From an uncultured Bacilli bacterium (GTDB taxonomy: Bacteria; Bacillota_I; Bacilli_A; RF39; UBA660), in the NCBI GenBank assembly GCA_944350335.1, contig CALVOQ010000004.1, positions 1-33,128 of the forward strand: 33,128 nucleotides of DNA, given 5' to 3'. The notes beneath the pieces were generated by a model that did not search any database, was not told the origin of the DNA, and saw only the letters and a program-made list of their open reading frames with translations. Made by a program: the position numbers and the translations under genes. Numbering within the stretch: position 1 is the stretch's first letter; each line of letters starts with the position of its first letter. Shown piece after piece: positions 3,460 to 30,875 of this stretch.

Positions 3460-3912
3460 TTAGCTTGAATCTATGATTATCCTATTTGAAGATTTAAACA
3501 ATCGTTCAGTTGGTCCTGTTGGTCCTGTTGGCCCAGTTATCCCTTGAGGTATAGTTAAATTCAAGAAAAAATTAGGTGATGTTCCAGTTATGCTTGCTTG
3601 AGCTAATGTTCCAGGACTACCAGTTTCCACCGTTCCTATTCCAATGTTTACGGATGCACCTGTTGGTCCCGTCGCTCCCGTTGCTCCTGTTGGTCCGGTC
3701 GCTCCGGTTGCTCCGGTTGCTCCGGTTGCTCCGGTTGCTCCGGTTGGTCCTGTTGGTCCTGTTGCACCTGTTGGTCCTGTTGGCCCTGTTGGTCCGCCAC
3801 TTGGTCCTGTTGGTCCTGTTGGTCCAAAACAACAATATGATATTATTTTTTGCTTATTATAATCTTTAATTTTATTTATTGCTCTTTGGTATGCATCATC
3901 GCATCTATTCAT
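3460..3912 (-). CDS. Collagen-like Gly-X-Thr repeat protein, probable spore-surface protein
   Basis: A 150-residue protein starting at ATG with a strong AGGAGGT site. Layout: N-terminal 29 residues ending in a Cys-Cys pair; collagen triplets at 30-87, mostly Gly-Pro-Thr and Gly-Ala-Thr, with one register break (Gly-Gly) near 39-40; a globular insert at 88-123 of the type found between collagen blocks in clostridial and bacillar exosporium proteins; a short second triplet block at 124-135; and a 15-residue tail. Collagen-like proteins of this kind (BclA family) form hair-like filaments on spores. There is no signal peptide, as expected for proteins assembled inside the mother cell. It seems short: family members usually carry a C-terminal trimerising domain, absent here, so the 3' end may be lost. 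A sigma-K-like promoter precedes it. Confidence 0.85.
3652..3825 (-). repeat. Collagen triplet tandem repeat tract
   Basis: DNA encoding residues 30-87 is built of 9-base units coding for Gly-X-Thr triplets. GCTCCGGTT (+ strand) is repeated five times without a mismatch at 3701-3745. The tract is far more GC-rich than its surroundings, and its periodicity leaves several frames open on both strands. Length variation by slippage or recombination is likely. Confidence 0.9.
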
Positions 3913-17730: not shown

Positions 17731-17752
17731 TAAAAAAGAGTTTTGCACTCTT
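17731..17752 (-). terminator. Terminator after the prepilin-like gene
   Basis: AAGAGT (17736-17741) pairs with ACTCTT (17747-17752) around a five-base loop. The A run at 17732-17737 gives the U tract on the minus strand. The stop codon of the gene lies in the stem. Confidence 0.8.
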
Positions 17753-18365
17753 AACCATTAGTATTTTCAAAAGAAATATTATTATCCGTAATCATTTTAA
17801 CAACTAAAATGCCATCAATTTTGTAGACGCCCATAATTCGCCACATTACTCCACTATACCAAAGATAATTATTAGGATCACTTCCAACATAAAGACACGG
17901 ATTACTTTCAGTTATATTCTCACAATGTAAATCCTCTATAACCTTATCCACTAGTTCGGAACTAGTAGAACTACCAAGTTCTCCATCCCAAATAGCAATA
18001 ACTGTGTTTATATCTTTTTTTATTAGTATTTGGATGTCATTTAAACTTTTTTTATCAACAGGATTTATAACACACCCATATGAATCAGGACAATTGCTAT
18101 TATTTTGTTCCGAATCTTTTTCAATATAGTTAGATTCAACTAATTCACCCACAGTAACTACAAACTCATTTGGATTAAACAATTGTGGATTATCTTGACC
18201 ATAAAGTTCTGCAGCTACTAAAATAATATCTTTCTTGCCTTCTAATAATCTCTGATTAATTCTATTTCTAATAGCAATTATGCTAGGAACAGCAATAGCT
18301 ATAATAATACTAATTAGAACTATAACAACTATAACTTCAGTTAAAGTAAAACCTTTTTTATCCAT
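17751..18365 (-). CDS. Prepilin-like exported protein, apparently 3'-truncated
   Basis: It begins with a class III prepilin signal, MDKKG|FTLTE, with cleavage expected after Gly5 and the conserved Glu at mature position 5. One long hydrophobic helix (6-31) follows. Such proteins are type IV pilins or pseudopilins of competence or secretion machines. The ectodomain (32-204) has four cysteines, C92/C98 and C148/C157, spaced as two likely disulfides. The last 45 residues, with N-Y-L-W-Y-S-G-V-M-W-R-I-M-G (167-179), look like the start of a domain that in related Bacillota proteins runs on for over 100 residues after a W-Y-S-G-x-x-W-R-I motif. Here it stops at residue 204, right at a terminator. 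No pilus ATPase or prepilin peptidase is present. Truncation is inferred from memory of the family. Confidence 0.78.
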   Translation of the reverse strand: MDKKGFTLTEVIVVIVLISIIIAIAVPSIIAIRNRINQRLLEGKKDIILVAAELYGQDNPQLFNPNEFVVTVGELVESNYIEKDSEQNNSNCPDSYGCVINPVDKKSLNDIQILIKKDINTVIAIWDGELGSSTSSELVDKVIEDLHCENITESNPCLYVGSDPNNYLWYSGVMWRIMGVYKIDGILVVKMITDNNISFENTNG

Positions 18366-19293: not shown

Positions 19294-19665
19294 CTATAAA
19301 GTAAATTCATGTACTATATTTCCATTTTCATCTAATGTTGAATACACACATAGAGTTCCACTAATTATCTCGTGAGTTATAGGATTTATTAAGTTTTTAT
19401 TTAACAACCCGTCATTTTGCAACATATAGAGCTTGGTACATATTGTGTCACCTGTATATCCTTTGTATAGTTCTTCCATAATATGTGGATATTTATTAAA
19501 ATACACATCTGTGGCATATTCAATCTGTTCAGTTAGCTCATTTAGCTTAGCTTGGTTGAACGACTGCACTGTTTTTGTAAACATAATTGTACCACTGGTG
19601 CTTACAGCTGCAATTACTGCTATAATAACGATAATTTCTATTAATGTAAATCCTTTTTTATTCAT
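19294..19665 (-). CDS. Short prepilin-like (pseudopilin) protein
   Basis: A 123-residue protein with class III signal MNKKG|FTLIE, Glu5 and a hydrophobic helix (6-28), behind AGGTGG. The body has a helical N-terminal half with the F-N-Q-A-K-L-N-E-L-T-E-Q-I-E-Y-A pattern seen in minor pilins, and two cysteines (in DTICTK and in GTLCVY). It is of the size of ComGC/ComGD-type or secretion pseudopilins. No assembly ATPase, membrane platform protein or peptidase lies in the window, so it must use a machine encoded elsewhere. It lies downstream of spoVS on the same strand, but a terminator separates them. It is probably full length, unlike the longer prepilin-like protein nearby. Confidence 0.8.
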   Translation of the reverse strand: MNKKGFTLIEIIVIIAVIAAVSTSGTIMFTKTVQSFNQAKLNELTEQIEYATDVYFNKYPHIMEELYKGYTGDTICTKLYMLQNDGLLNKNLINPITHEIISGTLCVYSTLDENGNIVHEFTL

Positions 19666-21365: not shown

Positions 21366-21815
21366 TTAACAATTCTCACAACCATTTGGCCAAGCGGATT
21401 CAGGATATTTAGCTTCCATAATGCTTGACAATATCGTTGCTATTCCAAAATTCACCATATCTTCAGAGTCTATGCTTACAGAATATTCTCTAGTAGAAGT
21501 ACTGATTCTAACAGTTGCCTTAGGTGGGGATTCATAAATTTCAAAAAACTCCAATCGATAATCTTTGTTTGCCATAACGCTTTCAGAAAATCTCCTTATA
21601 AAATTTTCAACAAATTTTTCTTCAATTATTCGAATTTCTCCAGTAGTTCTATATATACCATAGTCGACAGAATCCACCATCGCTGCTTCCATAACTTCTT
21701 TCATCAAATAGTAATCTTCTTCTGCGGTTGAAGTCAAATCTTGTACAAGTAACATAGCCACTATTATAAATAAACCTAAAACTATTACTAAATACGTCCA
21801 AAAACTTTCTTTCAT
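21366..21815 (-). CDS. Small single-span membrane protein of the surface operon
   Basis: A 149-residue protein with one N-terminal hydrophobic helix (about 6-25) preceded by MKESF, then a helical stretch (about 30-85) and a beta-rich end closing in CENC. The layout, with a short start, a membrane helix and an amphipathic helix running into a small domain, recalls TadE-type pseudopilins, but I cannot assign a family. Two cysteines at the very end (146 and 149) form a Cys-x-x-Cys-like tip. Its ATG is two bases after the stop of the 993-residue secreted protein, with GGAAGAGGATAAG between them acting as ribosome binding site, so the two are tightly co-expressed. It may anchor or assemble that protein. 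It is the last gene before the operon terminator. Confidence 0.72.
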   Translation of the reverse strand: MKESFWTYLVIVLGLFIIVAMLLVQDLTSTAEEDYYLMKEVMEAAMVDSVDYGIYRTTGEIRIIEEKFVENFIRRFSESVMANKDYRLEFFEIYESPPKATVRISTSTREYSVSIDSEDMVNFGIATILSSIMEAKYPESAWPNGCENC

Positions 21816-21817
21816 TC

Positions 21818-24799
21818 TTATCCTCTTCCATATTTATAAAAATTATTATAATCGTCTGTCGTTTTGTTTCTTCCTATAGAAATATCAACATTATAAGCAT
21901 AATCTGTGTTAGTACTTATCGTCGTCAAAAATTTACTCCTACAATTTAGCGAAGAGTCACAATCTATAGAATAATCCATATAGTCAGTATAACTATTATA
22001 ATTTCTAATATTTCTAATATTTGTAGGTGACAAATCTATAACATATTGTGGTTGTTTTACAGTCCAAATATTTTCTCCCAAATTTTGAATTGCTTTAATA
22101 ACTTTTGTAGCGTTTTCCCAATTCATACCGATTTGTCTATTAGTTGGGAACAAATCCGTTAAATCTACACTTCGTACAATCATCCCTAACCCCGCTTTAG
22201 GATCATCATAATCATCACAAATTTCAATCCTTGGGTCACATTCTACAAAACAATTTTCTATACTAGGATCACACTCGAATATTGTAGTTTCATTTAAAAC
22301 ATCAAACGCACATTCAAATTTTTGATCTTCAATTTTAATGTTTTCTGGTCTAGTTGCAGCGCCAATATCCGAAATGTCTACGTACACCCCATAGCTTCCA
22401 TTTTGTTTATTTAAAGTTATTGGATATATATATTCATCTAAACCTATCCAATATCCTTGCCCATCAGGAGTTGGGCTAACTATTCCCGTATATAATTGTG
22501 TATAAAACTTTACACTTTGCCAAAAATGTTGTTCCTTACTTGTAGTTAAATTTGCTGCATGATTATCAGGTACAGAGGTGTCAACAATTTCACAGTTTGC
22601 ATCAGTTTCAGAACCATCGCAAACAATTCGCCTTAAATCCGACTTAGTAGACTTTGAGGAATTAATCTCTGGCTCAGCATTACAAGCGCCACAGTACGAA
22701 TCATAGTCACAATCTTTACACCAACCTTGCGTAGTATTGTGCTGAATTGGATCGTCATTATCTATTTCTATCATAGGACTATAATCATCTTCATATCGGA
22801 TATCTATAGTTGAATCAAAATCATAACCATCAACTATTTTATAATATGCTGTATCTTGTTCGCCAAAATTATATTTATAAGTTCCTGCTGACTCCGAAAC
22901 ATAATATGTCTCTGGTATATATGTAAAATCGCTGTATTTCAACAAATTACAATTTTGAATATCCATCAATAATTTTTCTCTTCGTTCCAATGCTGCTTTA
23001 TAACTGTTTACAGCAGCGTTATAACTATTTCTTACTAAATTTATATTACCCTGTGTAGCATCCTGAGTTTCACAATTTTCACAACAACTTATACAATAGC
23101 CATTACTATCATAACCACAACAGCTTCTATCCCATGCCAGTGCTTCATCTCCAGCATCAAATGCCTCTGCTGAACCATTACCGCATGATACACTAGAATT
23201 TCCGGATAAATGGCAACTAACATATGGCCATGGACCACTCCATATATATTTCCAATTTGAAATTCCCCTTCCGTAATCTCCGCAACAGTTAGGCTCGGAA
23301 TCCGGCTCCGCTATTGTTTCAGTAGGTTCACCACCACCGGTATTATTATATATTGTTTCCCAAAATTTTAAAGTTTCCCAAGCATTAATAACTGCATTGT
23401 CAGCTGCTAAATAGTCTGATTCCCATTTTTCATATTTTATTTCTGGAGAAGTACAATCTCTCGTACCATATATAACTGTACTAAGCATTTGTGTTGTGGC
23501 AATTCTGCTATTAACGTCATATTTAAATTGTCTACCAGCAATTACTTCAGTTCTATCCATAAATGTAAAATCAATTTTTTCTCTGCAATATACTGTGCAA
23601 TATTCTTTATTCAAACCGAATTCTGAAGTAAAATCATAACTCGCTTGTTTGCCTTTATCACATGCTTTTATTATTGTGCACATTTCTGGGTCTTCAACAC
23701 TACCTTCGGTGCTTTCGTCACACGTCAAAGGAATATTTTCTTGAATTCTCATGTCGGGACAACAATCATCATTTTCTCCCTCACACCACTCATACTGAAT
23801 AGGATATTTATTTTCAATTGATTCAGTAGAATAAGTTAAAAAATACTGTGCTTGTGCCCCAGCTGGTTTATATCTTTTTATAGATCCTAAAGTGTACCTA
23901 GGATCTTGAAAAATAATATCAAAATTAATTAATATGCATTCTTCTGCACTAGGAACGTTTATAGTAATTGTTATCGTACATCCGGAATCGCAATTACTAA
24001 TGCTACTATTAATTGGATATCCAGAAACGCTGTTCGGAATAGTTATAACAGTATTAGAATTAAAATTAGTGTTTAAGGTAAATGTAACATTTCCATTGTC
24101 GTCTCTATCTGTGTTTGCCAAATCAATTTCCGGCTCCCATTTACTCTCACCACCACCAGACATAACTTTTTTGAAAAGTTCAATCCCTGCTTTTAAATCT
24201 GCGCCAACACTACCTTCAGCATAAAGAATGTTTGCACAATTGTCCTTAAATTCACCAGATGAATTTAAACATTGACTATAATTATCAACGTTATATCCTG
24301 ACTCCATTACAGCATGCGCTGTATTTTGATAAATTTTAGCACGTGTTGTAAGACCAGTTGAAGCATCATACCAACCATCCGAACCGCTCATTTCACTTGC
24401 TGCATCAACCGAATACGCAGCATATAATTTAAGTGCTGTTTCTGTTGCCAAATATGAATAGCCATTTGCTAAGGACTCTGCCAGTATAGTGGCAAGACCG
24501 CATTCATGAGTAAAATTAGAATTACAATTAGAAACATCAAATTCTTCATCTTCATAATATGTCAAACCACCACTACCAGGTCCTTTACGTCCTGGATGCA
24601 AACAATATGCTTCAGCACCACTTGCCTGATATTGTGCTAAATAAACATCTACCCTATTGCCCGATTCATCAACATAATAAACACCACTATCTTTAGAACC
24701 TCCCGTAGAGTTAATAACGGTTTGATTGCTAGCACTAATTTCATTTGGAAAATAAAACGATGTAAACAAAACTAAAAATAAAATGATTAATTTTTTCAT
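21818..24799 (-). CDS. Very Cys-rich 993-residue secreted protein, possible thioester-like N-domain
   Basis: Signal peptide at 1-23, then an ectodomain with about 41 cysteines, unusual for a Gram-positive secreted protein. Many sit in pairs or clusters (CC at 354-355 and 525-526; C-C-x-x-C groups near 570-590 and 700-715), suggesting extensive disulfides or metal binding. The N-terminal region (about 40-150), with A-Y-C66-L-H-P-G, a Tyr/Glu-rich stretch and L-A-T-E-T-A-L-K-L-Y (117-126), recalls thioester adhesin domains, but the Gln partner position holds Glu. A helical segment with A-A-V-N-S-Y-K-A-A-L-E-R-R-E-K-L-L lies near 610-630. There is no C-terminal membrane segment or sorting signal. 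Its start overlaps the upstream gene by four bases (ATGA). Function unknown; adhesin or surface-layer-like structure is inference. Confidence 0.75.
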   Translation of the reverse strand: MKKLIILFLVLFTSFYFPNEISASNQTVINSTGGSKDSGVYYVDESGNRVDVYLAQYQASGAEAYCLHPGRKGPGSGGLTYYEDEEFDVSNCNSNFTHECGLATILAESLANGYSYLATETALKLYAAYSVDAASEMSGSDGWYDASTGLTTRAKIYQNTAHAVMESGYNVDNYSQCLNSSGEFKDNCANILYAEGSVGADLKAGIELFKKVMSGGGESKWEPEIDLANTDRDDNGNVTFTLNTNFNSNTVITIPNSVSGYPINSSISNCDSGCTITITINVPSAEECILINFDIIFQDPRYTLGSIKRYKPAGAQAQYFLTYSTESIENKYPIQYEWCEGENDDCCPDMRIQENIPLTCDESTEGSVEDPEMCTIIKACDKGKQASYDFTSEFGLNKEYCTVYCREKIDFTFMDRTEVIAGRQFKYDVNSRIATTQMLSTVIYGTRDCTSPEIKYEKWESDYLAADNAVINAWETLKFWETIYNNTGGGEPTETIAEPDSEPNCCGDYGRGISNWKYIWSGPWPYVSCHLSGNSSVSCGNGSAEAFDAGDEALAWDRSCCGYDSNGYCISCCENCETQDATQGNINLVRNSYNAAVNSYKAALERREKLLMDIQNCNLLKYSDFTYIPETYYVSESAGTYKYNFGEQDTAYYKIVDGYDFDSTIDIRYEDDYSPMIEIDNDDPIQHNTTQGWCKDCDYDSYCGACNAEPEINSSKSTKSDLRRIVCDGSETDANCEIVDTSVPDNHAANLTTSKEQHFWQSVKFYTQLYTGIVSPTPDGQGYWIGLDEYIYPITLNKQNGSYGVYVDISDIGAATRPENIKIEDQKFECAFDVLNETTIFECDPSIENCFVECDPRIEICDDYDDPKAGLGMIVRSVDLTDLFPTNRQIGMNWENATKVIKAIQNLGENIWTVKQPQYVIDLSPTNIRNIRNYNSYTDYMDYSIDCDSSLNCRSKFLTTISTNTDYAYNVDISIGRNKTTDDYNNFYKYGRG

Positions 24800-25446
24800 T
24801 TAGAATCACCCCTTTTTGCCTTATGGATGTATATCGCAATGCCATAGCCTAAAGAAACAAGTATTATAGGTACCAAAGCATATAGATAGTAATCTTTTAT
24901 AAATGCATATACCTTATCCCAAAAAGACATGTCCTTTTTTTCATTGTATTTTTGTATTTCTTCATAAAACTCTTCATCAGTTTGTTCTTCTCCTATAGGT
25001 GGTTCATAAAAAGGATCGCATTTTTCATAGTCCGGATTTTCTTCACAACTAACATATCCATATCGTTCATTAAATTTTTTAGTATTAACTTTAATTTCGT
25101 TTAAAGATTCATCAGCGCAACCGTCAATAGTTGAATATACATTTATTGTGTAATATACTTTTTCATAAATATACCAGTGTTCAATTTCAATCGTGCCATT
25201 TTCAGAATCATCATATTTATATGTAGTAGTCGTATCATTATCATCTTCATGTATGGTAATATAAATATTTGGGGTAAGATTTGATATCTTAATAACATAA
25301 TAAATCAAATCCTCTGTCATAGGAATTGCTTCAACTTTTACATTTTTGGCATCTAATAACACTTCGTCATTACATTCAGCTTTACATACTAAACTATTAG
25401 AAAATAGAATAGAAATAACAATCAAGACAACTGACAATTTTTTCAT
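24796..25446 (-). CDS. Exported membrane-anchored protein, paralogue A
   Basis: A 216-residue protein with signal peptide (about 1-23), mature start E-C-N, a beta-rich domain (about 28-125), a Cys-containing region (C-E-E-N-P-D-Y-E-K-C), an acidic linker, one membrane span (about 190-210) and a short basic tail. Matching landmarks show that it is a paralogue of the product of the next gene upstream: I-N-V-Y-S-T-I-D-G-C with E/D-x-L, F-N-E-R-Y followed by a Cys, and W-D-K-V-Y-A-F-I-K-D-Y-Y-L-Y-A before the membrane span. It is translated just ahead of the 993-residue secreted protein (ATGA overlap), so it is probably a membrane partner of it. It has an extra internal promoter. Family unknown. 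Confidence 0.75.
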   Translation of the reverse strand: MKKLSVVLIVISILFSNSLVCKAECNDEVLLDAKNVKVEAIPMTEDLIYYVIKISNLTPNIYITIHEDDNDTTTTYKYDDSENGTIEIEHWYIYEKVYYTINVYSTIDGCADESLNEIKVNTKKFNERYGYVSCEENPDYEKCDPFYEPPIGEEQTDEEFYEEIQKYNEKKDMSFWDKVYAFIKDYYLYALVPIILVSLGYGIAIYIHKAKRGDSK

Positions 25447-25470
25447 TTTACACCTCTACTTTATAATAAA

Positions 25471-25498
25471 ATTATAACATAAAAATTCAATATTACAA
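25471..25498 (-). promoter_or_regulatory. Internal promoter of the surface operon
   Basis: Minus strand: TTGTAA (25498-25493), a 16-base spacer and the extended -10 TGTTATAAT (25479-25471). The -35 box overlaps the stop codon of the upstream paralogue gene. Confidence 0.6.
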
Positions 25499-26131
25499 TT
25501 TGTGTTTAACTTTTCTATAAACAACACTATAAATTGATACGCTTAAAATAGTACTTACAGTAGATATTATAGCACCCAAATAATAATCATTAACAACTCT
25601 AATTATGCGATCATACCATTTAACATTTTCAACGTCATTAGGTTTTTCTTCTTCTTTATTTAAAGTAAATTCATGATTATTTAGTAACAAAATAAACGTT
25701 TCATTTGAAATTGGATAATCTAAAAATCTGGCATTACATATATCTAAAGTTTCGTGACCATCGCATAAAATACTATTGTAAAATCTGTTAAAATAAGGAA
25801 TTGAAACGTAAAGTACTCTGAGGTGTTCATCATAACATTCATTTTCTACTGTAGAGTACACATTAATTGATAATCTACTACCTGGTTCTATATTTTCAAA
25901 AACAACTTTTCCGTTCTCTGGATTTAATACAAGATTTTCATATCTAATTTCTAATTTTTCATCAATGTTTGTTAATGTTAAAGTAAACAAGCCTCGTTCT
26001 TCGTCATAATCATAATTGTAATCAATATAACTTGACATAGCATTTAGCTCATATTTTTCTTTATAAGTGCACTGCGCATCTACAAAAAAAGGCAAAACTA
26101 ATAAAATTATGAAAAACAGTCCTTTCTTCAT
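25493..26131 (-). CDS. Exported membrane-anchored protein, paralogue B
   Basis: A 212-residue protein with signal peptide (1-19, ending V-D-A), mature start Q-C-T, a beta-rich domain (about 25-130), four more cysteines, a membrane span (about 185-203) and a basic tail. It shares with paralogue A the I-N-V-Y-S-T-V segment, the I-P-Y-F-N-R-F-Y-N-S-I-L-C stretch and the W-Y-D-R-I-I-R-V-V-N-D-Y-Y-L-G-A pre-membrane segment. The pair arose by tandem duplication, though overall identity looks low. It is the first gene of the four-gene surface operon, behind AGTAGGTGAG and an extended -10 promoter. No function can be assigned; a heteromeric membrane receptor or anchor for the Cys-rich protein is a guess from gene order. 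Confidence 0.75.
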   Translation of the reverse strand: MKKGLFFIILLVLPFFVDAQCTYKEKYELNAMSSYIDYNYDYDEERGLFTLTLTNIDEKLEIRYENLVLNPENGKVVFENIEPGSRLSINVYSTVENECYDEHLRVLYVSIPYFNRFYNSILCDGHETLDICNARFLDYPISNETFILLLNNHEFTLNKEEEKPNDVENVKWYDRIIRVVNDYYLGAIISTVSTILSVSIYSVVYRKVKHKL

Positions 26132-28017: not shown

Positions 28018-28030
28018 GTTAATATTTTTT
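27996..28030. terminator. Bidirectional terminator between herA-like and sortase genes
   Basis: AAAAAATATTAA (27996-28007) pairs perfectly with TTAATATTTTTT (28019-28030), 12 bp with an 11-base loop. The herA-like stop codon is in the loop, and the convergent sortase stop is at the far edge. Confidence 0.8.
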
Positions 28031-29606
28031 ATTGAACTAATTTTGCATGTAACACAAGTCTTCCATTATCGTTTCCCGAACAAGTAGATAAAGTTAAAAC
28101 AAAATCATCTTTGTCCACTTTGACACCAAAATTGTATACACTACGACTTTTTATTAAGTCCGCAAATTCTAAAAAGTCTTCATCATCAAAGAAATCTACT
28201 TTTATATAATCAGTTGTATAAGGAGTTTTATATATACTAAATACTTGCCACTTCATTTCTACACCCAAACTATTAAAAGTAATAAACATGTTTTCATCAT
28301 TTTTATACCATGAACTTTTAATAGTCTGCCTTAAATCCCCAAACATGTATCCACTGAGTAATGCATGTCCATATATCACAGTATTCTTATTTAAATTAGT
28401 GGGATTATTTCTATAATCCATAAAAATCCAACCGTTTGCCGTTCTGTTACCGTAAAAATCTCTATTCAAATAATAATCATTATCATCAGCTTGAGTTACT
28501 GGGTAATTGATCTTTGTGTTATTAACAGAAAGCCAACCAACAGTATCATCATTCATTTTCACTAAAGTACTTAAGTTAGTAGGAATGTTAGCATAGGGAT
28601 TAACATCTTCCTCTACTTCTTCATCAGATGGAAGCGCTGGTGACTCTTCTCCATTATCAACAATTATTTCACTAATAGTTTCATTAGTAGACAAACTATT
28701 CATAATAGAATTAGAATTAAACCATGTTACATAATCATTGTAACTATTTGATATTAATAAAACAAATGCTAAATATAAAATAATTGCGGAGCAAACTTTT
28801 AAATTACTATAAGTCAATTGTTTAAACAAATTATTTTTAACAAAATCATCTGAAAAAACAAATTTAATTTCTCCTTTGTTCTTTTTATACTTTCTATTTA
28901 ATTCTTTTAATTTTTTTATATTGTTATTTAACAAATCAATATTAGATTCAGTTTGATGAATTAAAATAATATAAGGATTAGAACCTAATATATCTAATAA
29001 CTTTTCGACTATACCACTCTTATATTCATAAATATGAATTAATTTTAAATGTTTATTAATCTTTAAAAAAATTTCAAAATCTTTTAATGTTTCAATAGTC
29101 ACTTCAATATTTCTTTTATAATATATATTTTTCATATCCTTTAGACTATTTAACTCTACAAATAATTTAGAAAACTTTTCTTTAAACGAAAAATACACAT
29201 TTACATTTTTTACTGCAAAAGAATGAACAAAGTTTTCCGGCATAAAATAACAAGTAATTGAAGATAAATACTTAACTTTTAATAATTTTTTATATGTTTG
29301 ATAAGTTAAAGACTCATTATTTTTAATAGTAATATTTTTAGCACAATTCAAATCATTTACAAAATCTATACATTTATTAAAAGTTAGTTCATTATCATAT
29401 ATAAAATCACCTTCAAAATCACATTTAACATATTTATTTATTACTTGTTTAACTTCGTCTTTATTTTTAAGTAAATATGAAAAAGAATATAATAATTCAT
29501 TATTATATATATTGTTTGAGTTAAGAAAATTACTTAAATTTTTACTATTTTTTTCTTGTGAAAAAAATATTTTATTACTAGAAAATCTTACTTTAAGCAA
29601 TTTCAT
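28029..29606 (-). CDS. srtB: Class B sortase with a large N-terminal cytosolic domain
   Basis: A transpeptidase that links surface proteins to peptidoglycan. It has 525 residues, about twice the usual sortase length. The C-terminal part (about 340-525) is a complete class B sortase: N-T-V-I-Y-G-H414, L-S-T-C509-S and N-G-R516. One membrane helix (about 267-287) precedes it, with an acidic Ser/Pro-rich linker at 310-335. Residues 1-266 precede the helix and have no signal peptide, so they should face the cytosol. They alternate hydrophobic strands and Lys/Asn-rich helices, contain four cysteines (62, 79, 88 and 119), and belong to no family I recognise. The divergent gene encodes a protein with an NPKTG sorting signal, the likely substrate. 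It starts at ATG with AAGGTGAT. The cytosolic part may sense or recruit something. Confidence 0.88.
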   Translation of the reverse strand: MKLLKVRFSSNKIFFSQEKNSKNLSNFLNSNNIYNNELLYSFSYLLKNKDEVKQVINKYVKCDFEGDFIYDNELTFNKCIDFVNDLNCAKNITIKNNESLTYQTYKKLLKVKYLSSITCYFMPENFVHSFAVKNVNVYFSFKEKFSKLFVELNSLKDMKNIYYKRNIEVTIETLKDFEIFLKINKHLKLIHIYEYKSGIVEKLLDILGSNPYIILIHQTESNIDLLNNNIKKLKELNRKYKKNKGEIKFVFSDDFVKNNLFKQLTYSNLKVCSAIILYLAFVLLISNSYNDYVTWFNSNSIMNSLSTNETISEIIVDNGEESPALPSDEEVEEDVNPYANIPTNLSTLVKMNDDTVGWLSVNNTKINYPVTQADDNDYYLNRDFYGNRTANGWIFMDYRNNPTNLNKNTVIYGHALLSGYMFGDLRQTIKSSWYKNDENMFITFNSLGVEMKWQVFSIYKTPYTTDYIKVDFFDDEDFLEFADLIKSRSVYNFGVKVDKDDFVLTLSTCSGNDNGRLVLHAKLVQ

Positions 29607-29670
29607 ATAATCACCTTACTATTATAATGATAACATAAATGAAGAAATAAAAGAAGAAATTATTAATGTA

Positions 29671-29724
29671 AAATATTTAAAATATTTAAAAAAAATATTT
29701 AAAAATTGAAAAATGTGATATAAT
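29671..29724 (+). promoter_or_regulatory. Promoter with A-tract upstream region for the NPKTG protein gene
   Basis: Exact TGATATAAT at 29716-29724, then AAAGGAGG and ATG at 29751. No clear -35. Upstream, 29671-29700 holds three near-copies of AAATATTTAA, resembling an UP element that would contact the polymerase alpha subunits. Confidence 0.55.
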
Positions 29725-29750
29725 ATAGATAATAATAAAGGAGGATTTAA

Positions 29751-30875
29751 ATGAAAAAGACAAGAAGACTAGTTATTATTACTTGCATTTTAATGATTGG
29801 ATTAATAAATATGCCAATTTTAAGTGCAGCAAATAATAGACTAGAAATTGTTCAAAAAGCAAAACAGTATTTATTCAAAACTGATGAAGGAGAAACAGTT
29901 GGTACTTTAAGACAAGAAATAGTTGAGCAAGACTTGGTAAATGGCAATATAACTATTGAATTGACATTAAATAACGCTAGAAATACTGAAATAATGTATA
30001 TATTCAATGGTTCAAATGATGAAACAACTATTAGTAGTTTTAAAGAATTAACAGAAGATGTATTTACTAATCTTGGAACAGAATACACTAAAATTGGTTC
30101 AATATTAGTATCTGAGCCACTAGTAACAAAACCATTTGCGCAAACAATTTCAGAAGTTGCAACGGGGTTAGATGAGTTAAAAGCCGTAAGTGTTACTGCA
30201 GGCACTACTGTTAATCAAGCTGTAGAATCAGCATTAACTTCATTTAGTAGTGATAGCGACAACAAGATAATAATAGTTGTTGATACAACTAATGATGCAT
30301 CAACTTTAAAATCACAAATTACTGCTAATACTAGTGATGCAACATTAATACTTTATACAACTGCTACAGCAAGTGTGGAAAATGCTATAAGTGTATCAAA
30401 TGTTGAGGAAACAAACGCAGCAATTAATGCGACATTAATTCCTGCAAAAAATGGCACAAGCATTACAATGCCACTAGCCACATATATTGTTGAAAATTTT
30501 GATGTTGCTTTAGTTGGTAACCCTACAAATGCTACACTAGATGAAACAACAAAAGCAATACAGTGGAATGTTGGAGATGTAGCATCTAACCAGGTAGAAA
30601 AAGTTAGGTATAGTTTAAGCTTAAAGTCAGTTGTTGACGATAGTCTAATAGGTTTAGAACTAGTTATAAATGAAGCACCAACAATAATCTTTAATGGAAA
30701 TACTGTTCAAAATACTGATGCTAATCAATGTAGTCCAGTTATTAAAATATTAAACGAAACTATAGATAATCCTAAAACTGGAGTAGCAAGTTACCTTATA
30801 TTTGGTTCTACATTACTAGCAATTGGGACAATAACTTACATAATTTCAAAAAAGAAAAAAGTTGAAACATTATAA
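29751..30875 (+). CDS. Cell-wall-anchored surface protein with NPKTG sorting signal
   Basis: A 374-residue protein with signal peptide (about 1-26, ending L-S-A-A), a long Thr/Ser/Asn/Val-rich ectodomain, and a C-terminal sorting signal: N340-P-K-T-G344, a hydrophobic stretch (about 347-365) and a Lys-rich tail. NPKTG resembles the NP(Q/K)TN-type motif of class B sortases, and a class B sortase gene is divergently adjacent. The ectodomain at about 75-205 follows the strand-helix order of a von Willebrand A domain, with I-M-Y-I-F-N-G-S-N-D (81-90) where the metal-binding D-x-S-x-S would be, so the metal site is degenerate. Residues about 235-310 look like an Ig-like or pilin-type beta domain. 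It has a perfect AAAGGAGG site. A minor pilin or adhesin role is inferred. Confidence 0.82.
   Translation: MKKTRRLVIITCILMIGLINMPILSAANNRLEIVQKAKQYLFKTDEGETVGTLRQEIVEQDLVNGNITIELTLNNARNTEIMYIFNGSNDETTISSFKELTEDVFTNLGTEYTKIGSILVSEPLVTKPFAQTISEVATGLDELKAVSVTAGTTVNQAVESALTSFSSDSDNKIIIVVDTTNDASTLKSQITANTSDATLILYTTATASVENAISVSNVEETNAAINATLIPAKNGTSITMPLATYIVENFDVALVGNPTNATLDETTKAIQWNVGDVASNQVEKVRYSLSLKSVVDDSLIGLELVINEAPTIIFNGNTVQNTDANQCSPVIKILNETIDNPKTGVASYLIFGSTLLAIGTITYIISKKKKVETL

Follow-up and report, generated by a model that had tools for sequence, protein, structure and literature searches.

A conserved cytosolic domain on one clade of class B sortases and a shared C-terminal tail on their candidate substrates in a family of uncultured Bacilli

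Results

The sortase gene and its product

The window, that is, the whole stretch of DNA analyzed (33,128 nucleotides), carries on its minus strand a gene for a class B sortase (SrtB), in which a long N-terminal part precedes the membrane helix. The features of the gene and of its product are listed below.

28029..29606 (-), class B sortase gene with an N-terminal cytosolic domain; open reading frame of 525 aa, matched by TIGR03064 and by Pfam Sortase PF04203
28809..29606 (-), conserved N-terminal cytosolic domain, residues 1-266, defined by profile A1
28746..28802 (-), single membrane helix, residues 269-287, at the hydropathy maximum
28587..28745 (-), linker presumably outside the membrane, residues 288-340, acidic and poorly conserved in the alignment
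28032..28586 (-), sortase catalytic domain, residues 341-525, from profile matches and catalytic residues
28365-28367, 28080-28082 and 28059-28061 (-), codons of the catalytic residues H414, C509 and R516
29612..29617 (-), Shine-Dalgarno sequence AAGGTG of the sortase gene, 5 bases 5' of the ATG

Assignment to class B is based on the SrtB equivalog model TIGR03064, whose cut-off of 153.75 is exceeded by the score of the protein (167.7 bits); the Pfam match covers residues 359-524. The catalytic His, Cys and Arg fall within motifs conserved across 17 aligned long SrtBs of the family, and the complete sortase core described in the sequence-only reading was found as described. The same reading had placed 266 residues, lacking a signal peptide, ahead of a single membrane helix, and this is borne out by the 525-aa frame and by the hydropathy profile, which shows a single hydrophobic helix (about 269-287), preceded by no other membrane-like segment. 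The positive-inside rule fits only 33 of 62 cases and is not decisive for the topology; the orientation, with the catalytic domain presumably outside, is taken from sortase function.

A second SrtB is encoded in the genome of the window (G000:C18). It is an ordinary enzyme of 283 aa, with a short cytosolic tail and no extra domain.

Spread and conservation of the N-terminal domain

Profile A1 found matches in 100 out of 291 genomes of the family, distributed over 51 of its 150 genera. In all of the 62 loci checked the match was followed, within the same reading frame, by a sortase domain, always of class B. Alignment of the 17 long SrtBs shows conservation from residue 1 up to the helix. The beginning of the domain coincides with the predicted start, or lies within a few residues of it, in the majority of relatives. 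Homologues consisting of the sortase part, with residues 1-266 left unconserved, had been named beforehand as the outcome that would speak against the proposal; the domain is, instead, conserved in the family.

Outside the family, in overlapping class and phylum samples of 395, 392 and 296 genomes, no good matches were obtained, but only a few fragments at E values of about 5e-4; viral contigs contained no relatives of the domain. A weak match in one genome (G009) proved to be a metallo-beta-lactamase (RNase J-like) protein, matched by chance. Neither standalone copies nor fusions to other effectors were found in the family, class and phylum samples. The expectation of a module recurring on different effectors was thus disappointed: since it is found only on one SrtB clade, the domain is specific to that clade, not a module that moves between proteins.

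Within-genus dN/dS values range from 0.17 to 0.47 for the domain, versus 0.03 to 0.16 for the catalytic part; the domain is under purifying selection and evolves faster than the catalytic part. Nearly invariant positions are Y44, N48, C119, F149, N153, K164, F180, N184, L187, I190 and N259. The four cysteines pointed out in the sequence-only reading (C62, C79, C88 and C119) are all present in the window sortase, but have no meaning in common, since C119 is the only one kept by 90% or more of 60 relatives. A conserved cysteine or metal site was ruled out on the same ground, C119 being conserved alone.

Similarity and fold searches

Searches of Pfam, NCBIfam and PDB sequences gave no consistent or credible match for residues 1-266, and the domain keeps the label of unrecognized that it had been given from the letters alone. 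The analysis confirms that SrtB is fused here to a conserved cytosolic domain of an unrecognized kind.

Structure prediction and fold search, proposed earlier as a check, yielded poor models and no fold match. Two AlphaFold models were built, each from a two-sequence alignment, and both are of low confidence (pLDDT 54.1 and 48.8; pTM 0.38 and 0.40). Their common ground is limited to strands alternating with helices over residues 67-266; the strand/helix alternation noticed earlier is therefore seen in both models, although these low-confidence models are its sole support. The two PDB fold searches run with them disagree, and no match was found at E<1e-3. The leucine-rich repeats of SKP2 appeared as a sub-threshold match by profile (E 0.48) and, with a TM of 0.32, in the fold search run with a poor model, but were absent with the second one; no clear internal repeat was found in the domain profile. 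A leucine-rich-repeat or ribonuclease-inhibitor-like (LRR/RNI) fold is suggestive but unproven.

History of the two SrtB clades

In a tree of 88 sortase catalytic domains from the family, the domain-less sortases fall, except for two long outliers, into one clade of 24 (98% SH-aLRT). The presence or absence of the domain changes only twice along the tree, against a mean of 22.5 changes for shuffled labels, so that one fusion or one loss is sufficient to explain its distribution. These data show a single ancient SrtB clade to which the domain is fused and with which it has been inherited.

A few SrtBs of the ordinary clade (L051:7212-9182 in G011, L057:233-1864 in G024 and L058:6092-7327 in G030) have a cytosolic domain of another kind, about 150 aa long and without relation to the first, with two copies in L051 and a weak membership for L058. 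SrtB may therefore have acquired cytosolic domains on more than one occasion in the family.

The adjacent substrate gene and the surrounding genes

A second gene, divergent from that of the sortase, encodes a secreted protein ending in a sorting signal, which is the probable dedicated substrate. Its features, and those of the genes downstream of the sortase, are the following.

29607..29750 (no strand), intergenic region of 144 bp, flanked by the divergent genes of sortase and substrate
29739..29744 (+), Shine-Dalgarno sequence AGGAGG of the substrate gene
29751..30875 (+), divergent open reading frame, probable dedicated substrate; secreted protein of 374 aa with a signal peptide and a sorting signal
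30768..30872 (+), cell-wall sorting signal made of NPKTG, a hydrophobic stretch and a basic tail; model A5, E 1.3e-9
30849..30872 (+), cytosolic C-terminal tail KKKKVETL, with the motif K-V-E-T-L-COOH, from the tail comparison
21366..26131 (-), sortase-downstream genes on the same strand for secreted or membrane proteins of 212, 216, 993 and 149 aa; homologues in L148, L154 and L155

Promoter-like matches in the 144-bp intergenic region were no commoner than in shuffled sequences.

The arrangement is a frequent one. The upstream neighbor of the domain-bearing sortase is a secreted protein with an NPxTG-type sorting signal in 37 of 57 loci, and is divergent in 33; the 37 signals comprise 32 strict PxTG and five variants, such as NAKTG and NSKTG. 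In the other 20 loci no adjacent substrate was found. The divergent position and the sorting signal are conserved across genera, while the ectodomains differ between them. Members of the ordinary SrtB clade lie near NPxTSD, NPxTAD or NPNTYD signals with other tails (L062, L063, L066, L051, L020, L021, L027, L053). In one genome (G146), three domain-bearing sortases are present (L118, L119 and L120), each adjoining its own sorting-signal protein; another genome (G205) has two such sortases. No cytosolic partner gene is conserved beside all the loci across genera.

Homologues of the 212-, 216- and 993-aa proteins are found directly behind the sortase, on the same strand, in L148, L154 and L155, which come from other genera; in the window, a gene for a HerA-type ATPase is interposed. 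Together with the 149-aa protein, they are probably members of the surface module of the sortase. The 993-aa secreted protein (window 21818-24799, minus strand) has a YCLHPG stretch near its N-terminus and no Pfam match. The membrane proteins encoded at window 25493-26131 (minus strand), L148:3701-4351, L154:3565-4191 and L155:5620-6543 have cytosolic tails ending in RK-[IVL]-KH-[GK]-[LI], another conserved tail of the sortase cluster. In one subclade, a very large protein of 1008-1397 aa, whose kind was not recognized, is encoded on the same strand 8-59 bases behind the sortase (L045:10681-14406, L116:5601-9794, L128:5574-8600 and L130:1755-5786).

A shared cytosolic tail

The candidate substrates of domain-bearing sortases have in common a C-terminal tail of the form K-[FLIVM]-x-[KRQN]-[IVLA]-COOH. 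Position -5 is K in 36 out of 44 tails, position -4 is F, L, I, V or M in 39 and position -1 is a hydrophobic residue (I, V, A, L or M) in 43, while K, R, Q or N occupies position -2. Signals were collected by using model A5, a sorting-signal model trained on the adjacent signals and deprived of the last five residues. At E<1e-4, it found matches in 19 of 20 genomes with the domain and in none of 20 without it; when only genera outside the model building were considered, the figures were 5 of 6 and 0 of 20, respectively (Fisher p=9e-5). One genome (G026) has the domain and yet no strong A5 match.

The motif was derived from the adjacent signals, 28 of 32 of which conform to it, before being applied to the held-out set, made of signals located elsewhere in domain-bearing genomes. 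Nine of the 12 held-out tails contain the motif, and the last residue is hydrophobic in every one of the 12. Among LPXTG controls from other families of the class the motif was found in 0 of 30 (p=5e-7 versus the held-out signals), and among signals of the same family, belonging to ordinary SrtBs or to domain-less genomes, in 1 of 13 (p=0.001), the held-out set being small and the sequences being related by descent.

Discussion

Sortase specificity is thought to reside in the pentapeptide exposed outside the membrane, with the basic cytosolic end of the sorting signal regarded as no more than a stop. A retention function has been described for this charged tail (PMC4591827), and the same source reports that SrtB of Clostridioides difficile cleaves SPKTG/PPKTG signals. 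The family may belong to the order RF39, to judge by its many genera, small genomes and retained sortases: RF39 keeps srtA/B, while RFN20 and ML615J-28 are without them (PMC10868615). In the open literature, no paper was found that describes a SrtB with a folded domain in the cytosol, or the reading of sorting-signal tails.

The sortase described here shares with the class B enzymes of TIGR03064 the catalytic domain, the His-Cys-Arg residues and, by genomic association, NPxTG-like signals; it differs in the conserved 266-residue cytosolic domain placed before the helix, where the ordinary SrtBs of the family have a short tail. Its candidate substrates have the motif, hydrophobic stretch and basic tail of the LPXTG_anchor (TIGR01167) and Rumino_NPXTG (NF033846) families, but most of those tested score under the cut-offs of these models, and their tail ends in a conserved hydrophobic residue following K-[FLIVM]-x-[KRQN].

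The reading that we favor, tentatively and with somewhat less than even confidence, is that of a dedicated class B sortase, whose inside domain would bind the tail of the substrate and thereby separate two SrtB routes. During recognition, a substrate exported by Sec would still be retained in the membrane through its hydrophobic stretch; its short C-terminal tail would be bound by, or docked onto, the cytosolic domain, and this step on the inner side would bring enzyme and substrate together. The extracellular catalytic domain would then cleave between the threonine and the glycine of NPxTG, as SrtB enzymes do. Tail reading would keep the domain-bearing route apart from the ordinary SrtB route of the same cell, with its NPxT[S/A/Y]D signals and plain basic tails. 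It is possible, if a shade more tentative, that the sortase checks its substrate twice, the active site reading NPxTG outside the membrane and the domain reading a tail of the K-F-x-K-I type inside. Binding of the tail by the domain is the simplest mechanism, because both are located on the cytosolic side of the membrane and have a common distribution. Against it, lysine-rich tails are to be expected in any sorting signal of AT-rich genomes, and both the 20 loci lacking an adjacent substrate and the genome lacking a strong signal match fit it poorly. Moreover, the domain and the type of tail have been inherited along with the sortase clade, and the tail may therefore follow the clade for another reason.

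The chief rival, which we consider somewhat unlikely, is a positioning role: by binding a partner in the cytosol or the membrane (translocase, divisome or lipid II synthesis), the domain would locate the sortase so that anchoring takes place at the right site, the tails being read by the partner machinery or serving membrane retention only. Kline et al. (2009) reportedly found that, in Enterococcus, both the localization of sortases and their short cytosolic tails matter. The lack of a partner gene conserved beside all loci also agrees with positioning through a housekeeping protein, for which it would be expected. What is left unexplained is a hydrophobic tail C-terminus conserved only where a domain-bearing sortase is present. 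The localizing tails of Enterococcus SrtC and SrtA are similar in that a cytosolic part of the sortase may set the working site (in part, PMC10107303), and different in being short and charged, compared with a domain of 266 aa.

It is improbable that the domain acts as a scaffold, making the sortase oligomerize or tying it to the 212-, 216- and 993-aa proteins within a multi-protein surface structure: their genes do follow the sortase on the same strand in three other loci, but this cluster occurs in few loci only, and the domain in 51 genera.

We regard as quite improbable the idea, put forward in the sequence-only reading, of a domain that senses an internal signal or ligand and turns the sortase on and off from the other side of the membrane. 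A large, conserved and globular-looking domain, with N48, N153, F180, N184 and N259 invariant or nearly so, would suit a sensor; however, it matches no ligand-binding or signaling family, a single helix is available for signaling, and the conserved residues show no catalytic or metal-binding pattern. No evidence was found for the proposed coupling to an internal signal or to the secretion machinery, and the conserved cytosolic tail of the substrates is favored instead.

Finally, an annotation artefact, with the true start just ahead of the membrane helix, where ordinary SrtBs begin, is refuted by the Shine-Dalgarno sequence at residue 1, the conserved start, the homologous domain across 51 genera and dN/dS values well below 1; translation begins at residue 1.

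If tail reading by the cytosolic domain were true, a sorting signal could contain a further address that is read on the cytosolic side. This would explain how several sortases of one cell stay separate, with the two class B routes unmixed, and would offer a genetic handle on the surface proteins of a large family of uncultured Bacilli.

Other genes of the window

Two genes at a short distance from each other encode prepilin-like proteins with N-termini of the GFTL-E type (17751-18365 and 19294-19665, both on the minus strand), and are perhaps part of a type IV pilus or competence-like locus. A collagen-like protein with G-x-T/G-P-T repeats, encoded at 3460-3912 (minus strand), recalls the collagen-like proteins of spore surfaces.
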